31,120 bases of DNA from a virus. The position numbers were made by a program, and so were the translations under genes. The first letter of the stretch is position 1, and the number at the start of each line of letters is the position of its first letter. Shown piece by piece: positions 13,076-30,405 of the stretch. The stretch covers positions 1-31,120 of the IMG/VR virus record IMGVR_UViG_3300025697_000096; one strand, given 5' to 3'. The notes under the pieces were generated by a model. The model saw nothing but the letters and a program-made list of their open reading frames with translations, was not told the DNA's origin and ran no database searches.

Positions 13076-13207
13076 TCATTTGTCGTGACCATAGACTTTC
13101 ACCCAAATCATAAAACCAAACCAAAGTATAGCCGTATGAGAATATTCACCTCTTAATAGTGATCCTATTATCCCCACCACAGCGATAAAGTATCCTAAAG
13201 CTTTCAT
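13076..13207 (-). CDS. Small membrane protein, 43 residues
   Basis: The ATG at 13207 overlaps the preceding stop as ATGA. The product (MKALGYFIAVVGIIGSLLRG, then a second hydrophobic stretch ILWFGFMIWVKV) has two short hydrophobic segments and a charged tail. The reading frame is open further upstream, but that part lies inside the methyltransferase-glycosyltransferase gene. Function is unknown; translational coupling ties it to the cassette. Confidence 0.65.
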   Translation of the reverse strand: MKALGYFIAVVGIIGSLLRGEYSHTAILWFGFMIWVKVYGHDK

Positions 13208-14613
13208 ACCCCTAACGCCCCCGAAATGCGTTCTACGGTCATTTTTGGCGAATGCCGGCGTATTACGGTGCCTCTGATTTGGCTTCGGTCGATTGCCAGG
13301 CATCCTTTCCAATTCGCTGCCAGGTCGTCAGCGGCTTTGTCGCTCCACACAAGCCCCTCGTTGATTCCGCGTTCGCGGACAGGCACGGTTATACCCGTAA
13401 GTCCGTGTATGAGCACCGGACACGACTTCTCGTCCGATATTATCGGGCATCCCATAAGCCCGATTTCCATTGCGGCCAGTGGATAATTGTCTTCCCTTGA
13501 CACGTAGAAACACGCCCGCGACCGGCGCGCGGCCTCGAGAAGCGCTTCGCGCGTATACCCGCCATACGTTATTTTGATATGTTTTGGGAATATCTCGCAC
13601 AATCTATCTGCGATTGCTTTCTCCTGCTTGCCGCCTTTAACGTAAATCATTGCATCGCAGTCGATCTCTGCGTAATGCTTAAGCATTTTCCACGGCCCCG
13701 GCATCGGAATATCAAGGATATAATGGTTTGTCTGCTGTTTGAAGTGCTTGCGGCCAAGCTCCGCATACCATCGGGACAGCCAGAATATTGCTTTGTATCC
13801 TTCATAATCGCATATCTCGCGTTCATGCGCGCCGGCACCCGGCGATTGTGAGTTGGCGAATACGACGTTTGGCCCTAATGCGATTGATCGACCTGCCCGG
13901 ATCGCGTCTACAAGCACCTGCAAATGCGAATAAAGCGGAATCCAGACAACTTTACTATCCGGATTAGGCGAACCCGTTATAGAGTATCGCGGGTCTTTGG
14001 CCAGCGCGTCCTTAAACGCACCCATAAGCACCGTTGGCCCGCTTGTGGAGTCAAGGTCGCCTTGTGCAACGATGTTGACAGGTGCCGCCTGTCTCGCCTC
14101 ACCACGGCGCAACACGGCAAGCCCGTTGTTGTTGTCGAAATACTCGGCATCCCAGGGCTCATTCTCGAGAAATTCCTGAATTGCGGTCTTTACTCCTGGG
14201 AAGGACACCGTATCATGCAAGATTATAACCCCTGTATCGCTGACGAGTTGTCCAAATTTTTTTAGTTCGTTAAGCGTATGCTCCCTTTCATGCGATGAGT
14301 CGATCACTAAGACATCAACTTCTTCGGTGAATTCAGGCGTCCACGTCATATCATGAGCCGTAACGTATAGCCAGTTGTCCGCTGCGAACTTTGCGCGTGT
14401 CCCGGCATACTCTAAATTATCTACGGAAGTCAGCTTTCCGCCTGTCACGGTCAACCCGGCAAGTATAGCACAAGTAATCCGCCCATGCCCCACGCCAAGC
14501 TCTAACGCCTTCTGCGCATTGGTTTCAACCACAAGATCGCGTATCGTCAAAAGGTGTTCGTTGTTGTCCGAAGGCGTCTTTGCCGTTCGTGCCAGTTCTG
14601 CAAGTAAATCCAT
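13204..14613 (-). CDS. Methyltransferase-glycosyltransferase fusion
   Basis: This is a 469-residue two-domain enzyme. Residues about 1-175 are a class I SAM methyltransferase: the SAM loop ALELGVGHGRITC, the acidic LTSVDN strand, and VLVIDSSHEREHTLNEL, as in the Methyltransf_24 group. Residues about 195-469 look like a GT-B glycosyltransferase, with ARRSRACFYVSREDNYPLAAMEIGLMGCPII resembling the donor-binding segment of GT4-type enzymes. One protein could add and methylate a sugar, and methyl capping of glycans is a common way to end chains. Its stop overlaps the next small gene, and its start overlaps the upstream membrane protein (TAATG). Confidence 0.8.
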   Translation of the reverse strand: MDLLAELARTAKTPSDNNEHLLTIRDLVVETNAQKALELGVGHGRITCAILAGLTVTGGKLTSVDNLEYAGTRAKFAADNWLYVTAHDMTWTPEFTEEVDVLVIDSSHEREHTLNELKKFGQLVSDTGVIILHDTVSFPGVKTAIQEFLENEPWDAEYFDNNNGLAVLRRGEARQAAPVNIVAQGDLDSTSGPTVLMGAFKDALAKDPRYSITGSPNPDSKVVWIPLYSHLQVLVDAIRAGRSIALGPNVVFANSQSPGAGAHEREICDYEGYKAIFWLSRWYAELGRKHFKQQTNHYILDIPMPGPWKMLKHYAEIDCDAMIYVKGGKQEKAIADRLCEIFPKHIKITYGGYTREALLEAARRSRACFYVSREDNYPLAAMEIGLMGCPIISDEKSCPVLIHGLTGITVPVRERGINEGLVWSDKAADDLAANWKGCLAIDRSQIRGTVIRRHSPKMTVERISGALGV

Positions 14614-14777
14614 TAGTCGTCCTCCCCTTCTGTTATCATTTTTCCATTTTCATCTATATAATATCTGGTCCATCCACTTGAATTTCGATTCTGCTTCCAA
14701 CTTTTGCGCCAATATTTAACCACAACAACCACCACAAACAACAACACAGCCGCAACAAATATCGCTAATACATGCAT
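14613..14777 (-). CDS. Small single-pass membrane protein
   Basis: This is a 54-residue ORF with a ribosome site (GGGGTGAAAG). Residues 3-20 (VLAIFVAAVLLFVVVVVV) make one transmembrane helix. A basic segment follows (KYWRKSWKQNR), then an acidic tail (IDENGKMITEGEDD). By the positive-inside rule the C-terminus is cytoplasmic. The stop overlaps the methyltransferase-glycosyltransferase start (TAATG), so it could anchor cassette enzymes at the membrane, but that is speculation. Confidence 0.65.
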   Translation of the reverse strand: MHVLAIFVAAVLLFVVVVVVKYWRKSWKQNRNSSGWTRYYIDENGKMITEGEDD

Positions 14778-14794
14778 CTTTCACCCCTTCTCAA

Positions 14795-15403
14795 TTAATT
14801 CCGTCTTAGAAAAAACCACCAATCGTCTTTCGTCCATGCTGTTAATCGGACACAATCATACCATGATGCGAGGTGGTTTATTATTGCGTCCCTTGCGCTT
14901 TGTAGTATCGGTTCACCGAACCCGACGCCGTTTGGCCCCCCTCCAGGCCGGTCATGGAAGCCTATGGTCATCTGGTCTGCGTATGGTTGGCGCATTGTTA
15001 TCAGTGTCAGCGCTTCCATTCCTTCGCAATTCATTTGCAGGCTTGCCATTTCGCCGGTTTGCTTAAGCACGTCGTCCATCGTTATCAGCTTTACGGTTGC
15101 GATAACCGGACGATGAAACCAGAACATCGACGCGCCGCCGTCGTGCCCGTGTAGCTCTGCCGTGCCGCGAAACGGAGCAACTGCGCCTTCAATTATTTCA
15201 AACCCGTCCGGGACGTTTGACGTCTGCGGATCGACACCGATAACCCGTTTGCCTATTCTTTTGAGTTCTTGCGAAGAACCCCAATTCAGACACCCGACAA
15301 CAACAGACGGCCCCGGATGGTCTTTTACACGCGGATGATATCGCCAGTAAGGTTTAGGCCCGGCAAGTTGGTCCATCAATTCAGGCTTTTGGATGACTAT
15401 CAT
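14795..15403 (-). CDS. FkbM-like methyltransferase, divergent
   Basis: This is a 202-residue protein. The stretch VVVGCLNWGSSQELKRIGKRVIGVDPQ gives a SAM-fold start. LITMDDVLKQTGEMASLQMNCEGMEALTL matches the FkbM pattern, in which a (T/S)LDD-like segment is followed by a (D/N)xEGxE box. FkbM enzymes usually O-methylate sugars. The canonical Asp before the EG pair is Asn-Cys here, so activity is uncertain. The place among glycosyltransferases supports sugar methylation. The ribosome site is GAGGAATAAACT. Confidence 0.6.
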   Translation of the reverse strand: MIVIQKPELMDQLAGPKPYWRYHPRVKDHPGPSVVVGCLNWGSSQELKRIGKRVIGVDPQTSNVPDGFEIIEGAVAPFRGTAELHGHDGGASMFWFHRPVIATVKLITMDDVLKQTGEMASLQMNCEGMEALTLITMRQPYADQMTIGFHDRPGGGPNGVGFGEPILQSARDAIINHLASWYDCVRLTAWTKDDWWFFLRRN

Positions 15404-15406
15404 AGT

Positions 15407-15604
15407 TTATTCCTCAATTTTCACGCAATACTGACATGCACGTTCGCCCTTGTGTTTCCAGATTATGCAGTCTTCTGATAAGTCTCTTAAGCATACCTTG
15501 CAGGGTGTCTCCATTGCTGTGGCATCAACCATCGTCCACACATGCCCTTCGTCAGTCGCCAACCCATCATAACCCGGTATCGGCTTAAGCTTAATCTTGC
15601 CCAT
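15407..15604 (-). CDS. Small zinc-binding hypothetical protein
   Basis: This is a 65-residue protein with CKVC (about residue 35), a further Cys in SEDCIIW, and CQYC near the C-terminus, a likely single zinc knot. The N-terminus (KIKLKPIPGYDGLATDEGHVW) has a beta character. The ribosome site is GAAGGGGTAAAGA. It sits between two cassette genes with very short gaps. Function is unknown. Confidence 0.65.
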   Translation of the reverse strand: MGKIKLKPIPGYDGLATDEGHVWTMVDATAMETPCKVCLRDLSEDCIIWKHKGERACQYCVKIEE

Positions 15605-15658
15605 TCTTTACCCCTTCTCATTAAAATTCTTGCCTGTTCATTGATCATTGTTAATTGT

Positions 15659-16426
15659 TCACTGTCTATGCGGATTATGCACGGCCAGGCATGTTAGGCC
15701 GAAGCGTATATTTTTGTTTGCCAATGACAAAAACGTTTGCGGCGCCGCCAGTGGTGATATCCCGGTTTCGTAAACTGCTGCGGATAGTGTTGGTTGTTCT
15801 CTTGTCGGCCATTTGAAAAACTCGCTTATCCACGTCCAGGTCAAGCGCTCTGAATGTGTATGGCCGTGTTTGCGGGCGATGGCTCCGCAGATAAATAGTG
15901 GGGTGAACCGATGCATACCCGGTCTTGACATATAGTCCTTTTTTTGTTCCGGAGTCATTGGCTCACCCGTCCAAGTTGGATCGGGGTGCCGGGTTACGAC
16001 AAAACCCGCCCGATCCGCGAGATCGAATAGCACCCGAATTTCTGCAATAGTTCCTTTAATGTCCAGGTCCGCGTCGAGACACAGTGAAAAGGTAGCATCC
16101 GGGAAGATTGCCGGCGTTGCGATTTTACATATACAGCTTTTGAGCCGGTTGTCGGAGAATCCAGCCCACACGGGAGGCACCCGAACACCGTAAACGCCAG
16201 TCGGTAATGCTGGACACTCGGCCAAGTTATGATAAATAATGCCAACCATGCGCCCTTCGGCGAATTCAAACCGAAGGCCGATATGGTTGTTAATGGTTTT
16301 AATCACGCGTTTGATTGCCGTGTCGTCATCGTAGAGACATTGCCAGGTGATAATCGGCTTGAACATGGTTGCCAACGTAACATCATCAGGAACGGGAATC
16401 TCGTTAATCCAGCTAAAGTTTGTCAT
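15659..16426 (-). CDS. TOD1/MUCI70 (DUF616)-like glycosyltransferase
   Basis: This is a 255-residue protein. The core NRLKSCICKIATPAIFPDATFSLCLDADLDIKG resembles the DUF616 layout, in which an (R/K)-x-x-K segment precedes a FPD(Y) turn and a S-x-W-x-D metal motif. A later histidine-proline (VVTRHPDP) and W-x-x-E-F-F...R-E-Q segment (WISEFFKWPTREQPTLSAAV) match its tail. Known members transfer sugars in plants and bacteria. DADLD is the likely metal-binding motif. The ATG has GAGGTTACATA upstream. Assignment is from motif memory; a more general GT-A enzyme is the alternative. Confidence 0.6.
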   Translation of the reverse strand: MTNFSWINEIPVPDDVTLATMFKPIITWQCLYDDDTAIKRVIKTINNHIGLRFEFAEGRMVGIIYHNLAECPALPTGVYGVRVPPVWAGFSDNRLKSCICKIATPAIFPDATFSLCLDADLDIKGTIAEIRVLFDLADRAGFVVTRHPDPTWTGEPMTPEQKKDYMSRPGMHRFTPLFICGAIARKHGHTHSERLTWTWISEFFKWPTREQPTLSAAVYETGISPLAAPQTFLSLANKNIRFGLTCLAVHNPHRQ

Positions 16427-16438
16427 TATGTAACCTCA

Positions 16439-16642
16439 TTATCGTGGCTTCTTTTCTGATAACAACTCCCGATTAAACCAGGGATTCTTTATGTAAGCGG
16501 CAATAGCTTCTTGCAGTTCCGGATACAACTTCAAGGAAAGCCCTGACAACCAATCAATATAAGAACAAGGGACAGAATCAAGCTCTTTCCCTTTGTGCTT
16601 ACCCCACGGCACCCGAACTTTGCCTGCTTCTTTGCCGTTCAT
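16439..16642 (-). CDS. DUF3820-family small protein
   Basis: This is a 67-residue protein with the family signature VPWGKHKGKELDSVPCSYIDWL. It is often found alone or attached to phage and bacterial exonucleases. Its role is not settled. The ATG has a strong ribosome site (GGAGGAACC) and overlaps the upstream stop (ATGA). It is the one cassette gene that looks like DNA metabolism rather than glycan synthesis. Confidence 0.8.
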   Translation of the reverse strand: MNGKEAGKVRVPWGKHKGKELDSVPCSYIDWLSGLSLKLYPELQEAIAAYIKNPWFNRELLSEKKPR

Positions 16643-16893
16643 GGTTCCTCCGACGCGCCGGCATTGATTATTTGAACTGACTTTTGATTCTTGGCGTGTT
16701 CTACCAACTGCTCCAGCCTGAGCGCGCTTTGCTTACTCAAAGCAATAACGGCCAGTTCCAGCGTTTTCTCCCACGAAAAGCCCGATTGTGCGCTCCCCAT
16801 TAAGACGGAATAAAGAACAGGATTTGAGTGGGCCTTTCCCCAAATGGCTTCCTGTTGCCCGATTGGTTCTTGTTTTATGTTTTTATTATCCAC
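16639..16893 (-). CDS. Hypothetical helical protein
   Basis: This is an 84-residue protein starting at GTG (16893) with GGGAAGGGGTAAAGC upstream. The sequence (KTLELAVIALSKQSALRLEQLVEHAKN) is mostly amphipathic helix. No domain is recognised. It overlaps the DUF3820 gene by four bases and follows the glycosyltransferase at 16897 with a three-base gap. Confidence 0.65.
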   Translation of the reverse strand: MDNKNIKQEPIGQQEAIWGKAHSNPVLYSVLMGSAQSGFSWEKTLELAVIALSKQSALRLEQLVEHAKNQKSVQIINAGASEEP

Positions 16894-16896
16894 GCT

Positions 16897-17937
16897 TTAC
16901 CCCTTCCCGCTTTCTGTTATCTCCGGAATACCGATTACCGTATCAGGATCAAACAATATATCGTGTTCCCGGCGTCCGCAATTACCGATTCCCCTTCTCT
17001 CGTTTGCCATTGGCAAATCTATATTCCGTCTACAACAATCACCCGTGCGTCGGTCTTTTTCGCAGAGATGCGCCCATTCCGGATATGGCGGTAATACTCC
17101 GTTTGTCGCATGACAGAGCCTTGCGTAATACTGACGGTATTTGAGTTTAAAATCTGCCGCGATCAGTTCCTTGTCCTCGCCCCACTTGCGCCCGTTTAGA
17201 GCGAAATCTATTTTGAACAGGTCCGGGAACGGCTGCCGCGTTGTGCCGTCGTGGTTGATGTATGTTACCAGGTCCGGGTTCCATTGCGGGTAATAGTGGC
17301 TGTCAATAGCGCCCAGGTGTTGCGCTTGTATTTGCGGCTGTCTCAAGACGTATGCGCCGTATTGCTTCAGGAACAGCACCATGTCGGGCCGTGTGCCTGG
17401 CAGCAAGTGCGTATCGTGTTCGATAGCACCTCGGGTTGTCATCCAGAACGGTTCTGAGCCACTATCAGCAATACCAAATTCAAGCTTGTTATTACTTCTG
17501 CAAGTGAAATTTTTTGTTACTTTTGTTGTATGACACCAGTCATGCTGATGGGAGCAAAGCCACCTGATCGGCTCACCTGCATTATTTGCTATCTGCCCAT
17601 AACAATGGATAAGGGAAGGCACCGCTCCCGGCTGAAGAAGCATATCGCTTTCGACCTGTACAAGAATCTCCGCGTCTGTTTCTTGCAAAAAGTGCGTAAA
17701 CATTGCCCTGCGCAGAAATCCGATATGTCCTTTAGGGACGGTGATTGCTTCATCAACCAGCCCTTCGGCGAGGTAATCGGCTATAATTTGTTTAGTGTAT
17801 GGATCGTCGGAAGCGTCGTCCATCACAACAACGCGCGCATCACCCTTGTTGAAATAACACACCGACCCCAAACACAACGCCAGCATTTCCGGCCGGTTCC
17901 AACTCAAGACATAAATAATTGTTTTCATCGGTTTCAT
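16897..17937 (-). CDS. GT-A family glycosyltransferase
   Basis: This is a 346-residue protein with the family-2 start IIYVLSWNRPEMLALCLGSV, then VVVMDDASDD and ILVQVESDMLLQPGAVPSL, where ESDM stands at the metal-binding DxD position. It would move a sugar from a nucleotide donor to an unknown acceptor. The C-terminal quarter is Cys/Arg-rich (CEKDRRTGDCC, GIGNCGRRE), unusual for the family. The ATG has GAGGGG six bases upstream. It is one of four glycosyltransferase genes in the cassette and probably adds an inner or outer sugar to the same glycan. Confidence 0.78.
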   Translation of the reverse strand: MKPMKTIIYVLSWNRPEMLALCLGSVCYFNKGDARVVVMDDASDDPYTKQIIADYLAEGLVDEAITVPKGHIGFLRRAMFTHFLQETDAEILVQVESDMLLQPGAVPSLIHCYGQIANNAGEPIRWLCSHQHDWCHTTKVTKNFTCRSNNKLEFGIADSGSEPFWMTTRGAIEHDTHLLPGTRPDMVLFLKQYGAYVLRQPQIQAQHLGAIDSHYYPQWNPDLVTYINHDGTTRQPFPDLFKIDFALNGRKWGEDKELIAADFKLKYRQYYARLCHATNGVLPPYPEWAHLCEKDRRTGDCCRRNIDLPMANERRGIGNCGRREHDILFDPDTVIGIPEITESGKG

Positions 17938-17959
17938 CGTTTCCCCTCTATCTAAAATC

Positions 17960-18466
17960 CTAATTCATTTTCGGTTTCACTGGCCTACTGGCCGGAAACT
18001 TCGGCTTTTTCTTTGTATAGACAATCGACATTTGCACCCACCCCCCGCCATCCAGAGCGCCATCGGATACGTTTTCAATCGGGATAACGGCTTTTAGGCT
18101 TATCTCGTCACACGGCTTATTCGATAACGCCATCACCTGCCATTGATCCGTCATAATTTTGGTAAGTCCGACTTGCTCGCTTACTTCGGTAACAATATCC
18201 ACGGCGCCTTTCATGCCAAGCGCAACGGGAACAAACGATCCGAGATTCGCAATGCTAACAGAGAAGTTATTCCAAAAGGTCGGCGGCGCTTTAATAGGAA
18301 TCTCGGTTAAGTCCCTTCGGTTACCGGCGCGCCTCATAAAGAAACAAACGCCAACCCCTGTATTTACGGGCATGGTGGTGAACATAGTAGCCGACGTTTT
18401 CCCCGGCACCGTAACACAACCCGGCAACACACAACATAACAACCCGATAAGTAGAATGCTTTTCAT
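17960..18466 (-). CDS. Predicted lipoprotein
   Basis: Starting at the ATG at 18466 (ribosome site GAGGGTGAAAAG), the product begins MKSILLIGLLCCVLPGC, a type II signal peptide with lipobox LPGC. The mature part is about 150 residues with a MFFMRRAGNRRDLTEIP-like basic stretch and beta-rich segments (VMALSNKPCDEISLKAVIP). The family is not recognised. Inserted between two glycosyltransferases, it might be an envelope protein that blocks superinfection or supports export. Confidence 0.7.
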   Translation of the reverse strand: MKSILLIGLLCCVLPGCVTVPGKTSATMFTTMPVNTGVGVCFFMRRAGNRRDLTEIPIKAPPTFWNNFSVSIANLGSFVPVALGMKGAVDIVTEVSEQVGLTKIMTDQWQVMALSNKPCDEISLKAVIPIENVSDGALDGGGWVQMSIVYTKKKPKFPASRPVKPKMN

Positions 18467-18527
18467 CTTTTCACCCTCAATAAATGTCGTTGCCTTTACT
18501 CGCAACCAACAACTCGCAACTCGCAAC

Positions 18528-20156
18528 TCATATGTCTATATCAAACAACTCCTTGCACACATCCGTATCGCTTCGCACCTTCATTGCGTGGAATCTTGCG
18601 GCTTCTCGGTCTAATCCTTCGTCGTTATTCAGGACGTCTTCATGGTGTTTGCCCCACTGCCAATCTTTATATTTGCGCGCCCGTGGGAGCCAGTAAGACT
18701 CGAACCGGGACGGCTCAAAGCATACTTTCATAACCCGAACGGAATTCATAAACTTCTCGAACCCGTCAACCTTAAACGGATGCGGCCCGCGCGATCTGAA
18801 CCAGTGCGAAACCGTCATATCACCGTAGAAATAAATTGGTATCCCTAAAAAAGCCGCTTTCAATGCCATGCCTTCTTCGGAATATCCCCATATTTTGCAG
18901 CAATCGACAAACCCGCCCAGGCGTTGCCATATATCGCGCGGGAAGAAGTAGCTTGCGCCGAGCATACCGTTGATTTTTTTGATTCCCGTTGCCGGCCTGA
19001 AGGTTGCAAAGCCCATTCCGAGCGTTGCGTAATCGTTTTGGCCCGGATGTTTGGTGAAGTTGGCCCCGCAGTGCGGCGCGCTATCGTTGGACTTGCGGCC
19101 TGTAAGCTCGAGGTGCGCGCATTTACCGACCATGATCGCGTTATAATCCTTGGCGGCTTGTGCTATGTCCTGAAGCCCGCCAGGTATCATAACACCCTCT
19201 TGTGTCTGTATCTTGCAGTGAGCGTCAAGAATGCCGATAACGTCGCCAGAAGCGGCCGCCCCTCCGATGTTCCGGGATGGGTCAACCCCGAGGGGTTTGG
19301 GGTTGCGGATCATGCGGAAGGGACAGCCGCCCGGCTGAACAGTTGGTAGTTTTGCGTTTGCGTTGCTTGCGTCGTCAACAAGGATGATCTCCGGTGGTTC
19401 AAACCCTTTTGAGGTATCATCAATGCTTTTAACGGTTTCGGTAAGCAGATAATTTCCGTCGTGGTCCTTTTGGCATTCGTTCCGTGCCGGCATAACGATA
19501 GACAGTGCCGGTCTTGGCTTCTTGCCCGCCCACCAAAGCTCTGTTTCAGATAATCTGTGCGCGTGGAAATATTCAATTTCCGGATTAACTGGCGAAAAGT
19601 TCTCGCATTCGGCGGTTATAATCTTTTTGCTTTCGGGCCTATGCCAGTGATTCTTGAGCCCGAAAAGCTTTATTGACTCGCCCCACGCCGGCTCAATGCC
19701 TATTTGCTCCAGCCGTGCGTCTTGCGGTCGTGGCCAGGTCTTGTCCATGAAGTCGGGCTTGACGCAATACACTTGCGTATTGACCCGATCCGGGAAATGA
19801 TGTTCTGTGGCCATCAGATCGACCATTTCACGCGTTGCAATATCGACGGACTTTGTTGCCCAGGCTTGCCCTGGATGGAACGTATCGCCGGCGATTTTAA
19901 CGATCCAATCAACGCCCATTTCTTTTGCAACCCTAAGCGCAGCCATACCGATTGCGGATTCTCCCTGCTGTTTTCCAAGTTCGCCAAGACCCACAACCGG
20001 TATGCCCACGTCAGATAGGAGATTTGCATTCCCGGTAACAAAAAGGACTGGATACACACTGCCCGCGCGTTTCACCGACTCCAGGCATGCTTTAAGAATC
20101 AAACGTTTTTCCGTCGTTCCATCCGAATAAAAGCCAATCGCTAATAATACCTTCAA
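18528..20156 (-). CDS. Two-domain glycosyltransferase; second half GALNT-like
   Basis: This is a 542-residue enzyme starting at TTG (20156) behind GGAGGGGG. The first domain (about residues 1-200) is GT-A-like, with VDWIVKIAGDTFHPG. The second (about 217-465) matches polypeptide N-acetylgalactosaminyltransferases (GT27) in order: SIVMPARNE, EIILVDDASN, ILDAHCK (metal motif DxH, residues 311-313), GASYFFPRDIWQRLGGF, KIWGYSEE and VSHWFRSRGPHPF. The last resembles the VGHVFR...PYxFP element, whose His is the third metal ligand. There is no C-terminal ricin-type lectin domain. Animal GALNTs start mucin O-glycans on Thr and Ser, and a Thr-rich mucin-like protein is encoded just upstream. The donor sugar and acceptor are inferred, not shown. 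Confidence 0.75.
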   Translation of the reverse strand: MKVLLAIGFYSDGTTEKRLILKACLESVKRAGSVYPVLFVTGNANLLSDVGIPVVGLGELGKQQGESAIGMAALRVAKEMGVDWIVKIAGDTFHPGQAWATKSVDIATREMVDLMATEHHFPDRVNTQVYCVKPDFMDKTWPRPQDARLEQIGIEPAWGESIKLFGLKNHWHRPESKKIITAECENFSPVNPEIEYFHAHRLSETELWWAGKKPRPALSIVMPARNECQKDHDGNYLLTETVKSIDDTSKGFEPPEIILVDDASNANAKLPTVQPGGCPFRMIRNPKPLGVDPSRNIGGAAASGDVIGILDAHCKIQTQEGVMIPGGLQDIAQAAKDYNAIMVGKCAHLELTGRKSNDSAPHCGANFTKHPGQNDYATLGMGFATFRPATGIKKINGMLGASYFFPRDIWQRLGGFVDCCKIWGYSEEGMALKAAFLGIPIYFYGDMTVSHWFRSRGPHPFKVDGFEKFMNSVRVMKVCFEPSRFESYWLPRARKYKDWQWGKHHEDVLNNDEGLDREAARFHAMKVRSDTDVCKELFDIDI

Positions 20157-20222
20157 ACTATTTCCCCCTCCGACTTTCTTTAGAAAAAGAAAGCCTCACC
20201 AAAGAAACCAATCTTTTAAAGT

Positions 20223-20363
20223 TTAATATAATTTCGCTTTCCTCGCCAATACTTCCATCAGTTTTACTTTTTGGTCATCTGTCAACTTCTCAAAACCACG
20301 AGTAACAACTCTATGCTTTCGCCTAATCTCTTCTACTCTCTTACGCTTATCAACAGCATTCAC
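20223..20363 (-). CDS. Small basic 46-residue protein, GTG start
   Basis: A GTG at 20363 with GAGGGGG nine bases upstream overlaps the end of the radical SAM gene. It encodes a Lys/Arg-rich helical peptide (VNAVDKRKRVEEIRRKHRVV, then GFEKLTDDQKVKLMEVLARK). It fills an otherwise unexplained 193-base interval. About 60 AT-rich bases with a weak hairpin (CTTTCTTT/AAAGAAAG) follow before the next gene. It could bind nucleic acid or the radical SAM enzyme. Confidence 0.5.
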   Translation of the reverse strand: MNAVDKRKRVEEIRRKHRVVTRGFEKLTDDQKVKLMEVLARKAKLY

Positions 20364-21744
20364 AAGGTGATTCCCCCTCTTCTTTGCCTAACAGCTTTTC
20401 AGCCGATAGTATCGAATACGCCCGCATTGCCTGTTGCCAAAAATGCGGCATGAGTTCACATGCAAAGGTATTCGGCATAAAATGCTTCTCGTCTTGAATC
20501 ATTGTTTCCCATGTGCAAAATGAATGACAGCCGAGAACAGCCGGACACATCGAGCACTCTTCGCGGAATTGATACCGCAAGTCAAAATTACGAATACGGT
20601 TTACCAATTCCAGCGACGTATACCCTTCTTGTATGGTTCCGAGGCGATATTCTGTATTACTTCGCGGGTTGCAGAATCGGTGACAGGGCCATAAATTGCC
20701 GCTTGTGTCAACCGCGATCCTGTTTACGCCCGCACTGCAAAGAGACCGCCGGCGCACACCTGCCTTAAGCCTTTGGACCATGTTGCGTATATGGTAAAGC
20801 CCGTAGGCCTTGCCCTCTCGCGCGCGCTTAATATACCAGTCTGTCGCTATTGTAATCTGTTCGCGGTATATCTGGAACTGTTCTTTTGTCCATTTCACAC
20901 CGCCTGCGGGTATTGAATTAACCGTATGAAACCCGATTTCGTCACACAGAAACCGGATTGAATCCGCGAGAAGATGCACCGTTGCCGGCGTTACCGTCAT
21001 TCTGCATGATGATGGACGTTTGGCGAGCATCATTTTTACGTTATCGAATACGCTTTCGTCGGTGCCGCGGGCTATTCGTTGCGCTTCCGGGTTCCCGTCG
21101 ATTGATGGCGATATCTTTACTTTATGCTCAAACAACCAGTCCAGCTTTTCGGCGGTTAGAAGCGTCATATTTGTAACAATGGTGAACCCGAAATCATTCT
21201 CCGGATATTTGCCAGAGGTCCATTCAACCGTTTCTTTTAACGATTCCCATTCGAGAAGTGGTTCGCCGCCGTAAATGTTTATACGTCTTAGAGTTACGGG
21301 CTCTGTAATCATAACCTTTTTGCCGTCTTTTTTTACAATCCGGTTCCGTTTCGCACCCGTGGATTGCTTCATAAACCAATGAATCGTATTCTTCGTGCGG
21401 GACATATCCGGCCCGGCGCCCGCACCGTCAGCGGCATAGCAAGCCTTGCATTTCAGGTTGCATTTGTCCGAAAGGTTCATATCGAGCACAAGCGGTTTTG
21501 GTATGCGCATATTCCCAACAGGGCAAGAGCCTTCGCGGATGCGTTCGACAATGTTTTTGTTATCTATTTTACAAATTCCGGAAGGTCCGCAGGTTTTGCA
21601 TTTTGATTCGGGATCGTCAATGCGATTATCGCAGAAAAAGCAAGCTGTGGTATACAACCGCATTTCTGCTTTAGTCGGTAGGTTCTCTCTAATCGCGCCT
21701 ATTGTATCCGATAAGGCTTTTGCATTATCTTCTGATAAGCTCAT
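20350..21744 (-). CDS. Radical SAM/SPASM enzyme
   Basis: This is a 464-residue protein from the ATG at 21744 (alternative 21756). The radical SAM cluster motif CNLKCKACY (C-x3-C-x2-C) is near residue 95, preceded by an extra Cys-rich patch (CFFCDN, CKTCGPSGICK). A SPASM-type C-terminus (CSAGVNRIAVDTSGNLWPCHRFC, then CSMCPAVLGCHSFC) would hold auxiliary iron-sulfur clusters. Such enzymes mature peptides and proteins, for example by thioether or carbon-carbon crosslinks, or act in sulfatase maturation. The tail ends CECC. The gene overlaps the 152-residue gene upstream by 20 bases. The Cys-rich repeat protein two genes up is the obvious candidate substrate, by proximity only. Confidence 0.85.
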   Translation of the reverse strand: MSLSEDNAKALSDTIGAIRENLPTKAEMRLYTTACFFCDNRIDDPESKCKTCGPSGICKIDNKNIVERIREGSCPVGNMRIPKPLVLDMNLSDKCNLKCKACYAADGAGAGPDMSRTKNTIHWFMKQSTGAKRNRIVKKDGKKVMITEPVTLRRINIYGGEPLLEWESLKETVEWTSGKYPENDFGFTIVTNMTLLTAEKLDWLFEHKVKISPSIDGNPEAQRIARGTDESVFDNVKMMLAKRPSSCRMTVTPATVHLLADSIRFLCDEIGFHTVNSIPAGGVKWTKEQFQIYREQITIATDWYIKRAREGKAYGLYHIRNMVQRLKAGVRRRSLCSAGVNRIAVDTSGNLWPCHRFCNPRSNTEYRLGTIQEGYTSLELVNRIRNFDLRYQFREECSMCPAVLGCHSFCTWETMIQDEKHFMPNTFACELMPHFWQQAMRAYSILSAEKLLGKEEGESPCECC

Positions 21745-22183
21745 TAATAAGTCCATCCTTTTCGCCTTGCGGCAGCCCTGACGCCTCCAGCACGTCACCA
21801 AATAAAGCCGCCACTACCCCTTTTTCGTGTCCGCCGTTCTCTTCCGTAATCGAAGTCCATCTAAAGAAAGCATCTTTAAGTAACCTTTTGACTTCCTTCT
21901 TTGGTAAGCCTAATGCTATCAGCTTTTGCATAATATTTTTGACATTTGCCGGGTTTGCGGTCTGGTATCGCGGGCATTCGCCTGCGGTAAACCTTGACCT
22001 TAATGCCGTAATCAATAGCGTTTTAAGCCCTTCCGAGTCTTCAACGGGCAAAAAATTGAACCCGTCCGCTTTGCATTGATCGCACGTTGCAACACCTACG
22101 GACACATTAAACCCGGCAGATACGCTCAAATGGCCACACTTTACCGTTGTTTCTGACATCTTATTTTCATATTGACATTTCAT
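21725..22183 (-). CDS. Hypothetical protein with N-terminal zinc motif
   Basis: This is a 152-residue protein (an ATG eight codons in, at 22159, is an alternative start). Near the N-terminus are CGH and CDQCKADGF, suggesting a zinc site. The rest is helical, with KNIMQKLIALGLPKKEVKRL and a short acidic end. It is the first gene after the strong promoter at 22203-22230 and overlaps the radical SAM gene, so it may be a partner or substrate-binding factor. No family is recognised. Confidence 0.65.
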   Translation of the reverse strand: MKCQYENKMSETTVKCGHLSVSAGFNVSVGVATCDQCKADGFNFLPVEDSEGLKTLLITALRSRFTAGECPRYQTANPANVKNIMQKLIALGLPKKEVKRLLKDAFFRWTSITEENGGHEKGVVAALFGDVLEASGLPQGEKDGLINELIRR

Positions 22184-22202
22184 ATTTCATCCATCCGAGT
22201 AA

Positions 22203-22230
22203 AGTATACACCATATACCGAGGTTGTCAA
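22203..22230 (-). promoter_or_regulatory. Near-consensus promoter of the modification cassette
   Basis: TTGACA (22225-22230), a 16-base spacer (ACCTCGGTATATGGTG) and TATACT (22203-22208) lie just after the mucin-like gene and 20 bases before the next ATG. It would let the radical SAM and glycosyltransferase genes be expressed apart from the tail genes. GTATA-TGGTG-TATAC across the -10 region is a perfect inverted repeat and a possible operator. Confidence 0.82.
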
Positions 22231-22238
22231 ATAAAACT

Positions 22239-23522
22239 TTACGGCGCAACACAAGCATCAATCCCATTCCAATCATATATTACGCCAAACCCGGCTTCTC
22301 CGCCACAGTTCCCATCACGCGAAGGAATTAGTTCATCGCAAATAGTTGCCGTTTCATCATACGTGCAAGAGCCAGAATAGGACGCACAAGAAGGAACAGC
22401 TGACTGTTTCGCCGTGCAAGGAACTATTATTGTGCCGGATAAAGCACCGGCGCAAAGACAATCCCAACAACAAAGGGCAGAACCTTCGGTTGTGGTGACG
22501 CCTTCGGTCGTTGTCACGCCTTCCGTGGTCGTCGGGCCTTCCGTAGTGCTTGCTTCAGTTGTGGATGCTGCCGTGGTTGTCGGGCCGGTCGTGGATGTTA
22601 GAATCGTTGTTGTTACTTCTGTCGTTGTCGGGCCGGTTGTTGTGAAGTCATCAAGCAACGTGCATTGAACTTCGTCGCAAAGCATGCAAGTGCCTTCGTC
22701 GCACAGTGAGCACTTGCCCTGATCGCAGAACGTGCATTTCCCCTGATCAAGATTAATACACTGCCCTTCGTCGCAAGTGTGACATTCGCCTTCGTCGCAT
22801 AAGTCGCAATCCCACTCGTCACATACATTACATTGGCGCGTTGTTGTGGCGAATCCTGGCGTAGTGACGATCCCTGCTGTTGTGGTTACACCGCCAGTTG
22901 ACGTTACACCTTCCGTTGTGGTCGGGCCGGTTGTAGTTGGGCCTTCTGTGGTCGTCTCTGCCGTGGTCGTCGGGCCTTCTGTTGTCGTTGGCCCGGTGGT
23001 TGTGGGCTCTGCCGTTGTCGTCGGGCCTTCTGTAGTTGTCGGGCCTGTCGTGGTCGGCCCTGCTGTGGTGGTTGGGCCTTCGGTCGTTGTTGGCCCGGTC
23101 GTTGTGGGCTCTGCCGTGGTCGTCGGCCCTTCGGTTGTGGTTGGCCCGGTCGTTGTGGGCTCTGCCGTTGTCGTTGGGCCTTCGGTCGTTGTCGGGCCTG
23201 TCGTGGTCGGTCCCGCCGTCGTCGTTGGGCCTTCGGTCGTCGTCGGCCCGGTCGTGGTCGGTCCCTGCGTTGTTGTTACGCCTGGCGTCGTCGTTACGCC
23301 CGCCGTCGTTGTCGCAACGCCTTCTGTTGTCGTTGCTACACCTTCCGTCGTGGTCGCAACGCCCGAGGTGGTAGTTACGCCCGCTGTGGTGGTTACGACG
23401 GTGCCGGTCGCGTCTAATTGATAAACACCATCGCCCAACGCGGTTAAAGTCAAGCCGGTTCCCATCTTTATAACGCCTGGCGTTTGTTCAACTGCGCTTT
23501 CGTCCACCCATACTAATGCCAT
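22239..23522 (-). CDS. Mucin-like Thr-rich repeat protein with Cys-rich octapeptide array
   Basis: This is a 427-residue, probably extended virion fibre protein. Residues 1-40 form a small head (MALVWVDESAVEQTPG...). Residues 41-229 are almost entirely TTT blocks spaced by Gly, Pro, Ala and Glu, including five exact 17-residue units at 92-176. Residues 231-292 are eight copies of a Cys-x-x-Cys-Asp-Glu-Gly-x-like octapeptide with 14 Cys. A second TTT stalk follows (about 293-350), then a Cys-rich tip (CCWDCLCAG, then paired Cys to ACVAP). There is no signal peptide. It follows the tail genes by TAATG overlaps, so it is probably a late structural protein. Dense Thr beside Pro is typical of mucin-type O-glycosylation sites. 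Confidence 0.85.
   Translation of the reverse strand: MALVWVDESAVEQTPGVIKMGTGLTLTALGDGVYQLDATGTVVTTTAGVTTTSGVATTTEGVATTTEGVATTTAGVTTTPGVTTTQGPTTTGPTTTEGPTTTAGPTTTGPTTTEGPTTTAEPTTTGPTTTEGPTTTAEPTTTGPTTTEGPTTTAGPTTTGPTTTEGPTTTAEPTTTGPTTTEGPTTTAETTTEGPTTTGPTTTEGVTSTGGVTTTAGIVTTPGFATTTRQCNVCDEWDCDLCDEGECHTCDEGQCINLDQGKCTFCDQGKCSLCDEGTCMLCDEVQCTLLDDFTTTGPTTTEVTTTILTSTTGPTTTAASTTEASTTEGPTTTEGVTTTEGVTTTEGSALCCWDCLCAGALSGTIIVPCTAKQSAVPSCASYSGSCTYDETATICDELIPSRDGNCGGEAGFGVIYDWNGIDACVAP
22647..22832 (-). repeat. 24-bp repeats encoding the CxxCDEGx octapeptide
   Basis: Seven full copies and one partial encode residues 231-292, from CNVCDEWD to CTLLDD. Two copies replace the second Cys with Leu. The first Cys never changes, and Asp is fixed at position 5. 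The copies differ at synonymous positions, so the protein pattern seems to be what is kept. Confidence 0.85.
22995..23249 (-). repeat. Five 51-bp repeats encoding GPTTTEGPTTTA(E/G)PTTT
   Basis: The five units cover residues 92-176 of the mucin-like protein, with a partial sixth to 192. Only the Ala-Glu/Ala-Gly position varies in the protein, but third codon positions vary freely (ACA, ACC, ACG, AAC-type neighbours). Such arrays can change copy number by slippage or recombination. Confidence 0.85.
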
Positions 23523-23644
23523 TATTCTGTCGCCTCAATAACAAATACCCCATCGCCATCGTCTACCAGTTGCAGCCCATCCCCGATAAGAATAACGTCC
23601 GGAGTCTGAGTATCGCCGTTTTCATCAATCCATACCTGCGCCAT
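23522..23644 (-). CDS. 40-residue head-domain paralogue of the mucin-like protein
   Basis: The ATG at 23644 overlaps the previous stop (TAATG), and its own stop overlaps the mucin-like gene start in the same way. The product MAQVWIDENGDTQTPDVILI... aligns along its whole length with residues 1-40 of the mucin-like protein: VWVDE/VWIDE, QTPxVI, GxGLxL, GDGVYQ/GDGVFV and a final AT. It is a stand-alone copy of the head without any stalk, probably from a duplication, and may co-assemble with the longer protein. Confidence 0.75.
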   Translation of the reverse strand: MAQVWIDENGDTQTPDVILIGDGLQLVDDGDGVFVIEATE

Positions 23645-24192
23645 TATGACACCCCCTGCCGACTATCAACTCGCACCATTATCAAACCAACATCTGGCGG
23701 AAGCCCAGCCGGTTGGTCAAATAAGTAATTCCCAACGTGCTGCATATGTCCGGCTACCGCTTTTATTGCAAAATATGAATTGGCTTGCAGCCCTATCCGC
23801 GAACCAATCGGAATAGAAGCGTAATCGCTGCACAAGACCGGATGAATACCAGTCGTCCAGACGTTACCCGGCGCATCAACGGGGGTTTGTTCCGTCACAA
23901 TGCCAAACCGTGATACACCCGGATATAATAACTGTGAAGCTTCAACACTGAACCCGTCCGTATAAAAATCATTCAACCAAAGTATAGAATATTGCGCAAC
24001 TTCGTCACCGCTAAAATTTATAATGGGTGTTACTGGAACGAATCTTGCATATTCAGGCTGCGCCGTAGGAAGATACCATCTCCTATTTTTATTTTTGGTG
24101 TCGCTATGAGACTTCGCCACACGATTATAGCCGTCTGGTGACAGTATAACCAGTTTAGCCTTAGCCGCATTATTTGTATTAACTCTGCTCAT
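23644..24192 (-). CDS. Virion-associated protein in the distal tail region
   Basis: This is a 182-residue protein; the ATG at 24192 is chosen because it overlaps the upstream stop (ATGA). The sequence is beta-rich (AKLVILSPDGYNRVA, WYLPTAQPEYARFVPVTPIINF, PIGSRIGLQANSYFAIKAV), as expected for a tail-tip or fibre-attachment protein. No specific family is recognised. It is translationally coupled on both sides to the structural genes and to the mucin-like pair. Confidence 0.6.
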   Translation of the reverse strand: MSRVNTNNAAKAKLVILSPDGYNRVAKSHSDTKNKNRRWYLPTAQPEYARFVPVTPIINFSGDEVAQYSILWLNDFYTDGFSVEASQLLYPGVSRFGIVTEQTPVDAPGNVWTTGIHPVLCSDYASIPIGSRIGLQANSYFAIKAVAGHMQHVGNYLFDQPAGLPPDVGLIMVRVDSRQGVS

Positions 24193-25049
24193 ATTAGCCC
24201 CAGCGCAGTATAATTTTTTGGAGTATATATATCTTTTTGTAACCATACATCTGGGTCGGCCGGCTGAAGTATCATCCCATCCAGAGCAAGTCGTTGGGGG
24301 GTTGTTACAGGATTTCCATTGGCATCAAGTATTTTTGAAATTTGTTTTGTTCCGGCCAATGATCCAATCGTATAAGTTCTTCCTGTCCAATATAATAAAC
24401 CTTCATTTAATATTCGTAGTTGCCAACCAAACCCGCCACGCCTAAATTGGATTTGATATGTAATCTTCCAGTAATACCCAAACGTATCAACTATACGCTG
24501 TCCGGTGATCGGCAATAATCGCGCTTCCCCTGTATCCCATCCCAAGTAAGGAGCGTCATTTACTGTGTTTTGATAAACTCTGGCCCATACGTCAGGGTAT
24601 GCAATTTCATTGCGGGTAACGTTATAAACCAAGTCGCCTACGTCTGAGGTCAACCCGACGTATTTTTCGCCAACCGTGTTTACTATTGCATCCCCTTTAT
24701 AATCCCGGTCGATCTGTTCGGTGTTGGTTATGCCGCCCCATGATCGCTCATAAGGGTCTGTAATAGGATTTCCCGACCCGGCATATTCACAAAAAACATC
24801 AAACAACAACGGTCCCAACGGTTGCGAGAATTTCCTAACACAAAATAGAGTTGGGTCTTGGGGGTATACATCTTTTAACGCCGGGACGCCCGCCGCGTTA
24901 ACTGCATCAAATGGGGTTGCATCGCCAGCGTCGAAAAGCACGGTAAATTGACGTTTCCCGGTGCTAAGTTCTTTACTAAAAACTTGCCCTATTTCCGTTG
25001 TGAAGGCTTCACCCGTCCAGCCTTCTTGTGTGTTTACAAGGGTTGCCAT
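24189..25049 (-). CDS. Probable distal tail/baseplate structural protein
   Basis: This is a 286-residue protein with many beta-like segments (VSKELSTGKRQFTVLFDAG-type strands, then YYWKITYQIQFRRGGFGWQLRILNEG). It lies directly after the tape measure gene, where siphophages encode distal tail or baseplate proteins. The ribosome site (GGAGTCTTAATTAA) is inside the end of the tape measure gene. The assignment is by position; the family is not recognised. Confidence 0.55.
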   Translation of the reverse strand: MATLVNTQEGWTGEAFTTEIGQVFSKELSTGKRQFTVLFDAGDATPFDAVNAAGVPALKDVYPQDPTLFCVRKFSQPLGPLLFDVFCEYAGSGNPITDPYERSWGGITNTEQIDRDYKGDAIVNTVGEKYVGLTSDVGDLVYNVTRNEIAYPDVWARVYQNTVNDAPYLGWDTGEARLLPITGQRIVDTFGYYWKITYQIQFRRGGFGWQLRILNEGLLYWTGRTYTIGSLAGTKQISKILDANGNPVTTPQRLALDGMILQPADPDVWLQKDIYTPKNYTALGLI

Positions 25050-27312: not shown

Positions 27313-28257
27313 TTACGGTGCGAATGTGGTCGCCGACGTTGTGTCAAGCGTAACCGTTAAATCGTCATCATTCAGGCCGAAATCAATCGCGTTGATTGCG
27401 AGGCCGTTTCTGTCGCCTTCCTGCGGATTGAGCCACTGACAGCCGCCAGCCGTGAACGTTACGGAATCATCGCCGCTGCCACATGCCGCGCTGAATGCCG
27501 CCTCGGTCCCGCCGATCCACTCGCCGAAAATGTCCTTCGTCGCGACAAGCGTTGCCTCCGGGTTGATGGTTCCGACAGGGCGCCTGTTTGCAATGACGGC
27601 ATACGAGTAGCCGCTATCGGTTGTCGAATCCTCACGGACTATGACATTATTGCCCGTGTCGATGGTGAGCATTTCAATGCGAGGCGTCCAGGTGCCGATC
27701 TGGAAAGCGGAATCGACAAAGCGGAGAACTGGAGCGGCCGGATACGTCGGCGCAAGAATCGCAACGTCGGTCGGCTCGGCCCATATACCCGTAAATGTAA
27801 ACTCTGCGGATACGCGTTTGCCGGAAACCATTGTGAATTTGACATTCCCCATCGCGCCGTAAATGCACTTGAACAGTCCATTTTCATACATGCCGATAGT
27901 GATTGTGTGCTGTGTCGCGCCGGCGCAACCAGGCGGGATAACGGACATCGAGAACACGCCACCCGTATCGTCGCCAATGCCGCAAGCCGGCAAAAGCACG
28001 GTTGCCCATAGCGGAATAAGGGAATCCGCAATCAGTTCCGTTGTGAACGTGCAAGTTCCGAGTCTGGAATCAGGGACTGCAGGCAGATAACCCATGCCGC
28101 CCTGTTGATCCCGGTCTACCATTTCAGCGGTTTGCTGAATGATCGGATCAAAAACATTGATTGTCGCGTTTGCCGCAAGCAACGATTCCTTTGTTCCCGG
28201 CACGGCTTCGGCCTTGACTGCAATCGTTCGCACTCTTGAGAGTAGTGGGCATGTCAT
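27313..28257 (-). CDS. Major tail tube protein
   Basis: This is a 314-residue beta-rich protein (TIAVKAEAVPGTKESLLAANA, VKFTMVSGKRVSAEFTFTGIW, DDDLTVTLDTTSATTFAP). Phage tail tube proteins of this type often begin with a segment stating that the sample is built from an extra reference state (AEAVPGT), and this protein has it. It lies immediately upstream of the chaperone pair that normally delivers the tube protein. Subunits would stack as rings around the tape measure. Several Cys residues (ACGIGDD, PGCAG, ACGSGDD) are unusual but not disqualifying. Confidence 0.78.
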   Translation of the reverse strand: MTCPLLSRVRTIAVKAEAVPGTKESLLAANATINVFDPIIQQTAEMVDRDQQGGMGYLPAVPDSRLGTCTFTTELIADSLIPLWATVLLPACGIGDDTGGVFSMSVIPPGCAGATQHTITIGMYENGLFKCIYGAMGNVKFTMVSGKRVSAEFTFTGIWAEPTDVAILAPTYPAAPVLRFVDSAFQIGTWTPRIEMLTIDTGNNVIVREDSTTDSGYSYAVIANRRPVGTINPEATLVATKDIFGEWIGGTEAAFSAACGSGDDSVTFTAGGCQWLNPQEGDRNGLAINAIDFGLNDDDLTVTLDTTSATTFAP

Positions 28258-29029: not shown

Positions 29030-29611
29030 TTAACGTTTTTCAAGGAATGCCGCTTTCGCCGCCTTCCGTTCGTAATGCAATTCAACGCGCTGCTTAAGTC
29101 GTTTGGCCAAAAATTCATCGCCCTGACGTATGAGCGATTCCAGTTGTCCGCTTTCAAGAACAACCTGCGTAATGCTTTCCGTTTTCAATTCGCGAAGCGG
29201 GAGTCTTTCGCTTGTTTTTCTCACAAATGCTCCCCTATGACCCGTGGGCATTGTCGCAATAAACGCGTGTCTATGAAGTTTCTTCTTCTTGCCGCGTCCA
29301 ATTATTACGCCAACCTCATTCTGCTTCATGTGCTTATTATGGCTGATCGGCCAACCGAACCGCCCGCCAGTTATTCTCCCGGTCAATCTGGTTCGCCTGG
29401 CTTTTTTGATCCACATGCGGCGCCTGATTTGTTTTTGCTTTAAGCCGATCTTTTTTGCCGCCAGCTTCGTAATCAAGCTTCTAAGCTTTTTTAACGTATC
29501 GTTTAACGCCGCGCCCGTGATAACGTCCAAGTCTCTCGGGTCAAGTAATTTCTCCAGTTCTGCAAGTTCGCCTTTATCAATTTCAATTTCTAAGAATTGT
29601 GCTTGTGACAT
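29030..29611 (-). CDS. Minor tail protein Z / HK97 gp10-like
   Basis: This is a 193-residue basic protein beginning MSQAQFLEIEIDKGEL; its ATG (29611) overlaps the upstream stop as TAATG. A basic middle (IKKARRTRLTGRITGG) and the segment HAFIATMPTGHRGAFVRKTSERLPLRELK follow. In this family an A-x-M-x-x-GH-x-G-x-F-x-R block precedes RLPI-x-E. These proteins sit at the head-tail neck or act in tail completion. Confidence 0.78.
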   Translation of the reverse strand: MSQAQFLEIEIDKGELAELEKLLDPRDLDVITGAALNDTLKKLRSLITKLAAKKIGLKQKQIRRRMWIKKARRTRLTGRITGGRFGWPISHNKHMKQNEVGVIIGRGKKKKLHRHAFIATMPTGHRGAFVRKTSERLPLRELKTESITQVVLESGQLESLIRQGDEFLAKRLKQRVELHYERKAAKAAFLEKR

Positions 29612-29871
29612 TATCTGCACTCCAATAACATCATACCTTCATCCTGCCATAGTATCCGGTTTATTTGCACTAATACAGGTCCGGCGCCTATGCGCTTTTC
29701 AAGTAATAGCTGATCGCCGCCCGTGTCTACTTCGGCAGACGACACGCCCGGATATTCTCCGCTGTCTGAGTTGGAAACCCACACTTGGATAATATCAGTC
29801 ATCTCGCGACCATTCTCGGCTTGTATGAAAGCCGGGTTACGGTCGATGACTGCTTTGATATCTCTTGCCAT
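29611..29871 (-). CDS. Small structural protein, possible head-tail stopper
   Basis: This is an 86-residue beta-rich protein (MARDIKAVIDRNPAFIQAEN, then VQINRILWQDEGMMLLECR). It is in the position of a head-closure or stopper protein, between the connector-like gene and the gp10-like gene. The sequence gives no family. It is coupled to both neighbours by one-base to three-base overlaps. Confidence 0.55.
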   Translation of the reverse strand: MARDIKAVIDRNPAFIQAENGREMTDIIQVWVSNSDSGEYPGVSSAEVDTGGDQLLLEKRIGAGPVLVQINRILWQDEGMMLLECR

Positions 29872-30368
29872 TACAATTTAACTTCCGTCAGTTTGTCTTT
29901 GATGACGTCTGCAATTACAACCTTGTCAAGTTCCGATTGCGGCGGAGTGTCTCTGTGCTCGTTGATCACTATCGAAAGACTGCTTATTTTAGCAGTCAGT
30001 GAGTTTTTGTGCGCCGTCCATTCTACCGCAGACAAGGTTCCAGCGCGATACATTGCGGCCTTAGTGTTGTTTTCTCTCCGTTGCTTTTCGCGCAACAGCA
30101 TCAAACAATTCACGCGCTTGCTCCATGTGTCATACTTTGCCGGTATAATTACCTTGTCCGCAAAAACACAAGCATCCAGGTCAATCGCCGCTAATTCTGC
30201 TTCCGGCGGAGTGAATTTCCTACCGCCAAGAGACGCAAGCACCGACATTGCATTCTCTGACTCGCCTTCGCCAAGCTTTTTTAAAACAAGGAAATCGTAT
30301 GCTTCCTTCTGCCCCCACTCCGTCACATCCGCAGGATATCTGATTTCTTTTGCCATTAACTCAGTCAT
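29871..30368 (-). CDS. Possible head-tail connector protein
   Basis: The frame is open to 30533, but the ATG at 30368 has AAAGGTAATATC upstream and avoids most of the overlap with the previous gene. The 165-residue product is helical and charged (LREKQRRENNTKAAMYRAGT, DKVVIADVIKDKLTEV). Its place before the neck genes suggests a connector or another neck protein. No motif confirms this. Confidence 0.5.
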   Translation of the reverse strand: MTELMAKEIRYPADVTEWGQKEAYDFLVLKKLGEGESENAMSVLASLGGRKFTPPEAELAAIDLDACVFADKVIIPAKYDTWSKRVNCLMLLREKQRRENNTKAAMYRAGTLSAVEWTAHKNSLTAKISSLSIVINEHRDTPPQSELDKVVIADVIKDKLTEVKL

Positions 30369-30405
30369 GATATTACCTTTTATTCCTTTTTGTCTGCGCG
30401 GTCTA

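Follow-up and report, generated by a model that had tools for sequence, protein, structure and literature searches.

A candidate phage module for cross-linking and glycosylating virion surface proteins

The radical S-adenosylmethionine (rSAM) enzyme QhpD links Cys to Asp or Glu. PapB likewise joins Cys and Asp, in CX3D motifs (PMC9413430). Glycosylation of virions by phage enzymes has also been described: according to a statement in PMC12363180 that cites Freeman et al. 2023, the mycobacteriophages Che8, Corndog and Myrna use their own transferases to glycosylate capsid and tail-tube proteins. Here we analyze a 31,120-bp virus record (IMGVR_UViG_3300025697_000096, hereafter the window) in which a Thr-rich fibre gene (22239-23522) is followed by genes for a PapB-like rSAM enzyme (20350-21801) and for a transferase (18528-20156) that resembles the polypeptide N-acetylgalactosamine transferases (GalNAc-Ts or GALNTs, family GT27). 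The fibre and the cassette genes are all on the minus strand. We propose, with a probability of about 0.6, that this region serves as a module with which the phage cross-links and glycosylates its own surface proteins, the fibre included, with the chemistry predicted from similarity to known enzymes.

An initial annotation of this DNA had read the cassette as a mucin-type O-glycosylation system. The GALNT-like enzyme and the Thr tags described below agree with that reading. The PapB-like maturase and the array of CX3D motifs in the fibre, which make up half of the module, were missed, as were genes for a 152-aa protein and a 188-aa lipobox protein and a second Thr-repeat gene at 30406-31120.

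The window lies within a 39,571-bp IMG/VR contig, to which it is identical across the compared 21.6 kb. The two contig ends lie within a single Thr-repeat gene and have an 86-bp direct repeat in common, from which we take the genome to be probably close to complete and either circular or permuted. It belongs to a tailed phage, with a gpA-type terminase, a lambda-type portal, a capsid protein, a cement protein (Phage_cement_2) and a Phage_tube_2 tail tube.

The radical SAM enzyme and the CX3D arrays

The 427-aa fibre protein has no family match in family scans. It consists of an N-terminal fibre-like segment, two GPTTTEGPTTT regions (approximately 22836-23393 and 22476-22640, from the translation) on either side of a Cys-rich array, and a C-terminal domain. 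The array (residues 231-294, 22641-22832) comprises eight tandem 8-residue units of the form CxxCD(E/Q)Gx in perfect register: CNVCDEWD, CDLCDEGE, CHTCDEGQ, CINLDQGK, CTFCDQGK, CSLCDEGT, CMLCDEVQ and CTLLDDFT. Cys1 and Asp5 are present in all units and Cys4 in six of the eight. Since neighbouring units share a nucleotide identity of only 0.58, and both Cys codons and both Asp codons are used, the protein pattern looks selected and not the product of a fresh duplication.

Two genes downstream of the fibre, the largest gene between it and the GALNT-like transferase (20350-21801) encodes an rSAM/SPASM enzyme of the peptide-maturase type. Its best curated models are PapB (3e-46) and QhpD (4e-37), both under the equivalog cut-offs, and it scores 37.2 bits against the SPASM model TIGR04085 (cut-off 27). 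The best solved relative is 5wgg (E=1e-23), and the CX3CX2C motif is invariant in the alignment of the rSAM sequences (A4).

We scanned a viral collection for the pattern (CxxxDxxx)3C and searched the whole records with the rSAM sequence from the window. The 104 pattern matches were mostly chance occurrences or recent tandem repeats, and these were used as controls. The enzyme was found in six of the seven records with a CxxCDxG array (E 5e-16 to 2e-115) versus 0 of 42 other records (Fisher test, 5e-7, or 4e-6 with one duplicated virus merged); the seventh array record, which has no rSAM match, is a 5.7-kb fragment. Enzyme and array are paired in at least four other unrelated viruses, and in these other phages the two genes abut or overlap. 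The association is also seen from the rSAM side, where the close clade (E<=8e-79) lies beside an array in 4 of 4 distinct viruses and the more distant loci in 0 of 9. PapB is the top NCBIfam model for all six rSAM enzymes, and members of the phage clade are 38-50% identical to each other. The arrays lie in fibre-like virion proteins, one of them with a Laminin_G_3 domain, and in one virus (L284) a single protein beside tail genes has CxxCDEGx blocks in alternation with Thr stretches, as in the window. The rSAM enzyme likely acts on the array.

That this action forms thioethers is also probable, if with somewhat less assurance. CxxC is a motif characteristic of zinc and iron-sulfur sites, and the chemistry of rSAM enzymes is unreadable from sequence alone, so the repeat could instead bind metal or be rich in disulfides, and the enzyme next to it could have another target or another chemistry (epimerisation, cyclophane formation or methylation). 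We consider this unlikely given the pattern of conservation: Cys4 is missing from 20-40% of the units and the CX3D spacing persists, with Asp at +1 or +4 of the Cys in 111 of 116 cases in G016 and 81 of 83 in G019. Moreover, PapB is the best curated model in every case and QhpD is among the next best, and both are Cys-Asp/Glu thioether enzymes. The rSAM proteins of G016 and G019 begin near the rSAM core, which leaves little N-terminal room for a recognition element of the kind used with ribosomally synthesized and post-translationally modified peptides (RiPPs).

Other viral rSAM genes were recorded alongside these. In two viruses (L282 and L283) the arrays are variants (CDGD and CxC-rich types) and the rSAM enzymes beside them are more divergent; that of L282 is the nearest of all to PapB (1.5e-66). 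At three further loci (L323:5957-6250, L326:5330-6535 and L327:5008-5907) rSAM genes are near Cys-rich proteins, one with 19% Cys, that have no CX3D arrays, and are possibly further maturase/substrate pairs in phage tails. An rSAM gene of Campylobacter phages (phrog_1802, ~24% identity) was considered and set aside, as the annotation near the CP220 copy showed no recognisable rSAM substrate.

The GALNT-like transferase and the Thr-triplet tags

The 542-aa transferase (18528-20156) has an N-terminal domain and a GALNT-like C-terminal domain (18528-19520). The GALNT landmarks pointed out in the initial annotation are present in it: D311-A-H313-C, IWGYSEE and VSHWFRSRGPHPF. They go beyond chance, because a phmmer search of the PDB with this protein returned only polypeptide GalNAc-Ts (15 of 15 matches, best E=1e-7). 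A profile (A3) was built from 14 domain sequences, namely this one, three from bacteria and ten more from viruses. Against the PDB, GT27 entries take ranks 1-16 (human, mouse, fly and Toxoplasma GalNAc-Ts; E 6e-45 to 4e-37) and span the domain in full or for the most part. Next is chondroitin synthase at 5e-30, and most ordinary GT2 structures align to the N-terminal half of the domain only.

AlphaFold gave an unusable model of the 542-aa protein as a single sequence (mean predicted local distance difference test, pLDDT, 35) and a usable one of the domain with its 13 relatives in the A3 alignment (pLDDT 83.4, predicted template-modelling score 0.88). The best 50 Foldseek matches of this model are all GalNAc-Ts (E down to 3e-17, template-modelling score by query 0.56-0.70), including entries of the 8uhv type that carry the label Toxoplasma GalNAc-T3 in the Foldseek output; 8uhv and related entries are of a Toxoplasma O-glycosyltransferase (PMC11074326). 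Matches to predicted viral structures are weaker (best E 2e-13) and mostly named GT2-like. The DxH...H metal site is kept, with D99, H101 and H239 of the domain (D311, H313 and H451 of the protein) invariant in the 14 sequences and W211 (W423) nearly so. The initial annotation had named beforehand, as a point on which its assignment would turn, whether the domain is nearer to GALNTs than to other GT2 enzymes, and it is nearer by phmmer, by profile and by fold.

Among viral contigs, the strict GALNT core motif is found only in this virus; the remaining occurrences are four bacterial GT2 genes and one chance reading. Because three of the four bacterial genes are on Planctomycetota contigs, a Planctomycetota host was considered but not adopted, as a search of 294 genomes gave only rSAM of ~29% identity.

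The repeat protein of the initial annotation is confirmed. Thr makes up 32% of the fibre's 427 residues, TTT occurs 37 times, and a count of the TTTxxxTTT DNA pattern over the whole 39,571-bp contig gives 56 for the coding strand, 0 for the opposite strand and 0 for a reversed-pattern control. It is not the only carrier, and the proposal of one TTT fibre as the substrate is therefore too narrow. TTT is also found in the second fibre, in the cement protein, within its C-terminal tail (...ATTTAAATTTVAPTTTVAATTTAAATTTGG), and at the end of the capsid protein (...DDTTTTT), and in none of the other 38 listed reading frames of the window. In a sister phage (L132, capsid 57% identical), ATTT tails are present on the capsid, two cement proteins and the tail tube; the tail tube protein of the window (27313-28257, minus strand) has a short TTSATTFAP end where the sister version has a full TTT tail. 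More distant capsid relatives, mostly fragments, have neither the tandem TTT pattern nor a GALNT-like match. The recurrence of one tail on non-homologous exposed proteins would look like a modification tag.

A profile scan of viral sequences gave 12 further loci, nine of which are convincing GALNT-like genes. In one 36-kb record (L300), relatives of two tail genes of the window (24189-25049, E=8e-14, and 23644-24246, E=3e-9; both minus strand) precede a fibre that contains a Ser/Thr stretch. The gene for this fibre overlaps one that encodes two GALNT-like domains; after these come a third GALNT-like gene and a methyltransferase-like gene. Another protein, encoded upstream of a portal-sized gene, has a Ser/Thr tail at its end. 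Across L300/L314 the relatives of the two tail genes lie directly upstream of the Ser/Thr fibre or are fused to it, and the co-occurrence of repeat fibre and GALNT-like genes that the initial annotation looked for is thus seen in a phage with related tail genes. A 103-kb record (L298) encodes several Ser/Thr-tailed proteins. In a crude test, 11 long Ser/Thr stretches were counted over four lineages (this phage, its sister, L300 and L298), versus 1.2 expected from comparison records. The GALNT-like genes of another phage group (L297, L299 and L301-L305) lie beside terminase or other transferase genes.

We conclude that the GALNT-like enzyme probably glycosylates phage proteins and that, by a smaller margin, Thr is its predicted acceptor; GalNAc as the sugar is a tentative suggestion. 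Alternatively, only the rSAM enzyme would act on the fibre, the TTT repeats would be flexible linkers, and the transferases would build or alter a host surface glycan, for receptor masking or conversion of the O-antigen type. GT2-superfamily transferases of phages are often seroconversion genes, viral GALNT-like relatives weakly match GtrB-like PHROGs, and Thr-rich stretches are widespread in viral proteins among the matches listed. This alternative is nevertheless unlikely in view of the full-length alignment of the domain to GALNTs, the restriction of TTT to virion genes and the phage with GALNT-like genes directly after a Ser/Thr fibre; nor was a GtrA/GtrC-like gene noted beside the transferase. 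Far less probable still is a role in modifying phage DNA bases. Phages do glucosylate DNA, and a C5-cytosine methylase is encoded at 191-1435, but the genes examined included no hydroxymethylating enzyme, the cassette comes after tail genes, and the fold is that of a polypeptide GalNAc-T.

Proposed coupling of the two halves

The link between the rSAM enzyme and the GALNT-like transferase is most direct in L298, where one 1139-aa open reading frame consists of an rSAM/SPASM region (E=2e-15 to the rSAM of the window) followed by two GALNT-like domains. Such a fusion usually implies one substrate or one pathway. A search of 50,697 phage records gave no convincing match to the GALNT-like gene, to the rSAM/transferase fusion or to the L300/L301 relatives.

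The fusion would also be understandable if the GALNT-like enzyme glycosylated the Cys array itself (S-glycosylation, as in glycocins) or the thioether product, and not Thr. A bacterial relative weakly matches the model of the peptide S-glycosyltransferase SunS, and there is likewise a weak match between the phage enzyme and MftF, from the mycofactocin pathway. However, the GALNT-like genes of L300/L314 accompany Ser/Thr fibres with no CX3D array seen there, and TTT tags are carried by the cement protein and capsid, which are free of arrays; we regard this explanation as improbable and continue with Thr as the predicted acceptor.

Several observations weigh against a module that both cross-links and glycosylates. 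The PapB model NF047865 gives the rSAM of the window 158 bits and its relatives 118-225 bits versus a cut-off of 340. The 542-aa transferase has no Pfam match to a ricin-type lectin domain, its catalytic domain being the last one, and bacterial GT2 proteins that share its motifs resemble it about as well as GALNTs do; for these two reasons we call it GALNT-like and not a member of GT27. The contig of the sister phage stops short of the cassette, so the transferase region is outside it. Thr-rich proteins are common among viruses without known transferases, among the matches listed, and TTT repeats alone were rejected as proof of glycosylation because such stretches are so widespread. There is no Ser/Thr fibre within the loci of the terminase-adjacent GALNT-like genes (L297, L299, L301-L305). 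Finally, in the stretches inspected beside the other pairs of rSAM and array we saw no GALNT-like gene, and the two halves can therefore exist apart.

Set against these points are the genes themselves, the array, the positions of the tags, the GALNT and rSAM similarities and the recurrence of rSAM with array, all of which are established directly. In the mechanism that we propose, the GALNT-like transferase would prime O-glycans at the fibre's Thr triplets; the TTT tags at the capsid end and on the cement protein and second fibre would probably be primed as well. Lengthening of the glycan would fall to the adjacent GT2, TOD1-like and GT-B-like enzymes, and the Methyltransf_24 domain may methylate it, although capping of this kind is doubtful. 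The PapB-like enzyme would join the Cys and Asp side chains within each CX3D unit by thioether bonds. The product would be a rigid, stapled rod between bristle-like glycosylated regions, together with sugar-tagged capsid and cement proteins, and the expected benefit a stable adhesin, protease resistance and surface or mucus binding. More broadly, we see even chances that several unrelated tailed-phage lineages staple CxxCDEGx tail-fibre arrays through Cys-Asp thioethers made by RiPP-type rSAM enzymes, and that some combine the stapling with O-glycosylation, by a GALNT-like activity, of Thr/Ser tags in the same virion, even in one fused enzyme, to give a doubly modified mucin-like surface for which we found no described counterpart.

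Neighbouring genes and comparison with known systems

The initial annotation had counted four glycosyltransferase genes and more than one methyltransferase in the cassette, all of it on the minus strand. Besides the GALNT-like enzyme there is a GT2 enzyme (16897-17937; Pfam PF00535, E=9e-6), a candidate extender. The gene at 13204-14613 has a Methyltransf_24 domain (PF13578, 1e-13) fused to a GT-B-like domain that is matched weakly, under the Pfam cut-off (PF13692, 0.002). A 255-aa protein (15659-16426), the second candidate extender, has its own TOD1/MUCI70 (DUF616) match only at E=0.2; its likeness to this family (PF04765) comes through viral relatives, in L032 and L118, that are above the Pfam cut-off. 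The second methyltransferase, the 202-aa protein at 14795-15403, could not be confirmed: FkbM-methyltransferase-like by eye only, it has no Pfam family at E<=5 and matched no solved structure. In L032 and L118, which are unrelated Thr-repeat phages, TOD1/MUCI70, GT25 or sugar-transferase genes and methyltransferases lie a few genes from the Thr-repeat gene.

Two more minus-strand genes without family matches belong to this stretch, one for the 152-aa protein between the fibre and rSAM genes (21725-22183) and one, inside the transferase cassette, for the 188-aa protein with a lipobox-like N-terminus (17960-18526). The second Thr-repeat (LEPTTT) fibre (30406-31120, minus strand) is represented by its C-terminal part at the window edge, with its N-terminus at the other end of the 39.6-kb contig. 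At this locus (29611-31120 of the window; L008:1-349) a 119-aa gene that is single in the sister phage (L132, 8939-9298) is split by the inserted fibre module, the N-part matching the L132 copy at 45% over 22 aa and the C-part at 48% over 86 aa.

If the proposed module is real, phages chemically mature their adhesins after translation with natural-product enzymes, and virion proteins with up to about 60 units become a class of rSAM substrate. Phage relatives of the mucin-initiating enzyme would offer a handle on its origin and minimal acceptor requirements, and the loci could supply compact enzyme/substrate pairs for stapling by thioethers and for glycosylating Thr in bacteria. The rSAM/array pairing also leads to specific predictions of mass.

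Every enzyme class in the module is already known. We found no description in the literature of rSAM maturation of a phage or virion fibre. The initial annotation knew of no phage system with its enzyme and substrate; the glycosylation of virion proteins reported for Che8, Corndog and Myrna in PMC12363180 narrows this, and the pairing here of a GALNT-like enzyme with tagged virion proteins is one variety of such phage-encoded virion glycosylation. Phage transferases and capsid and tail proteins as targets, here predicted, are common to both; the Thr-triplet tails, the GALNT-like enzyme and the rSAM half set this phage apart, in a comparison that did not extend to the transferases directly. The mycofactocin pathway also has an rSAM (MftC) and a GT2 enzyme (MftF) in one peptide pathway, but its product is a small redox cofactor and the MftF match is weak (E=5e-10, about 105 residues). 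With GT27 (GalNAc-T2, TgGalNAc-T3), the phage enzyme shares the top sequence-profile and fold matches, the DxH...H metal site, the Trp, an HxFR motif and Ser/Thr-repeat proteins nearby; it differs in being phage-encoded, with an extra N-terminal domain, no ricin-type lectin domain and about 20% identity, and its donor and acceptor activity is only predicted. Like PapB, the ranthipeptide maturase of freyrasin, and like QhpD, the phage rSAM/SPASM enzyme is found beside a protein with repeated CX3D motifs. The phage clade is under the PapB equivalog cut-off and no transporter or peptidase was recognised in the cassette; above all, its predicted substrate is a long virion fibre and not a short peptide.

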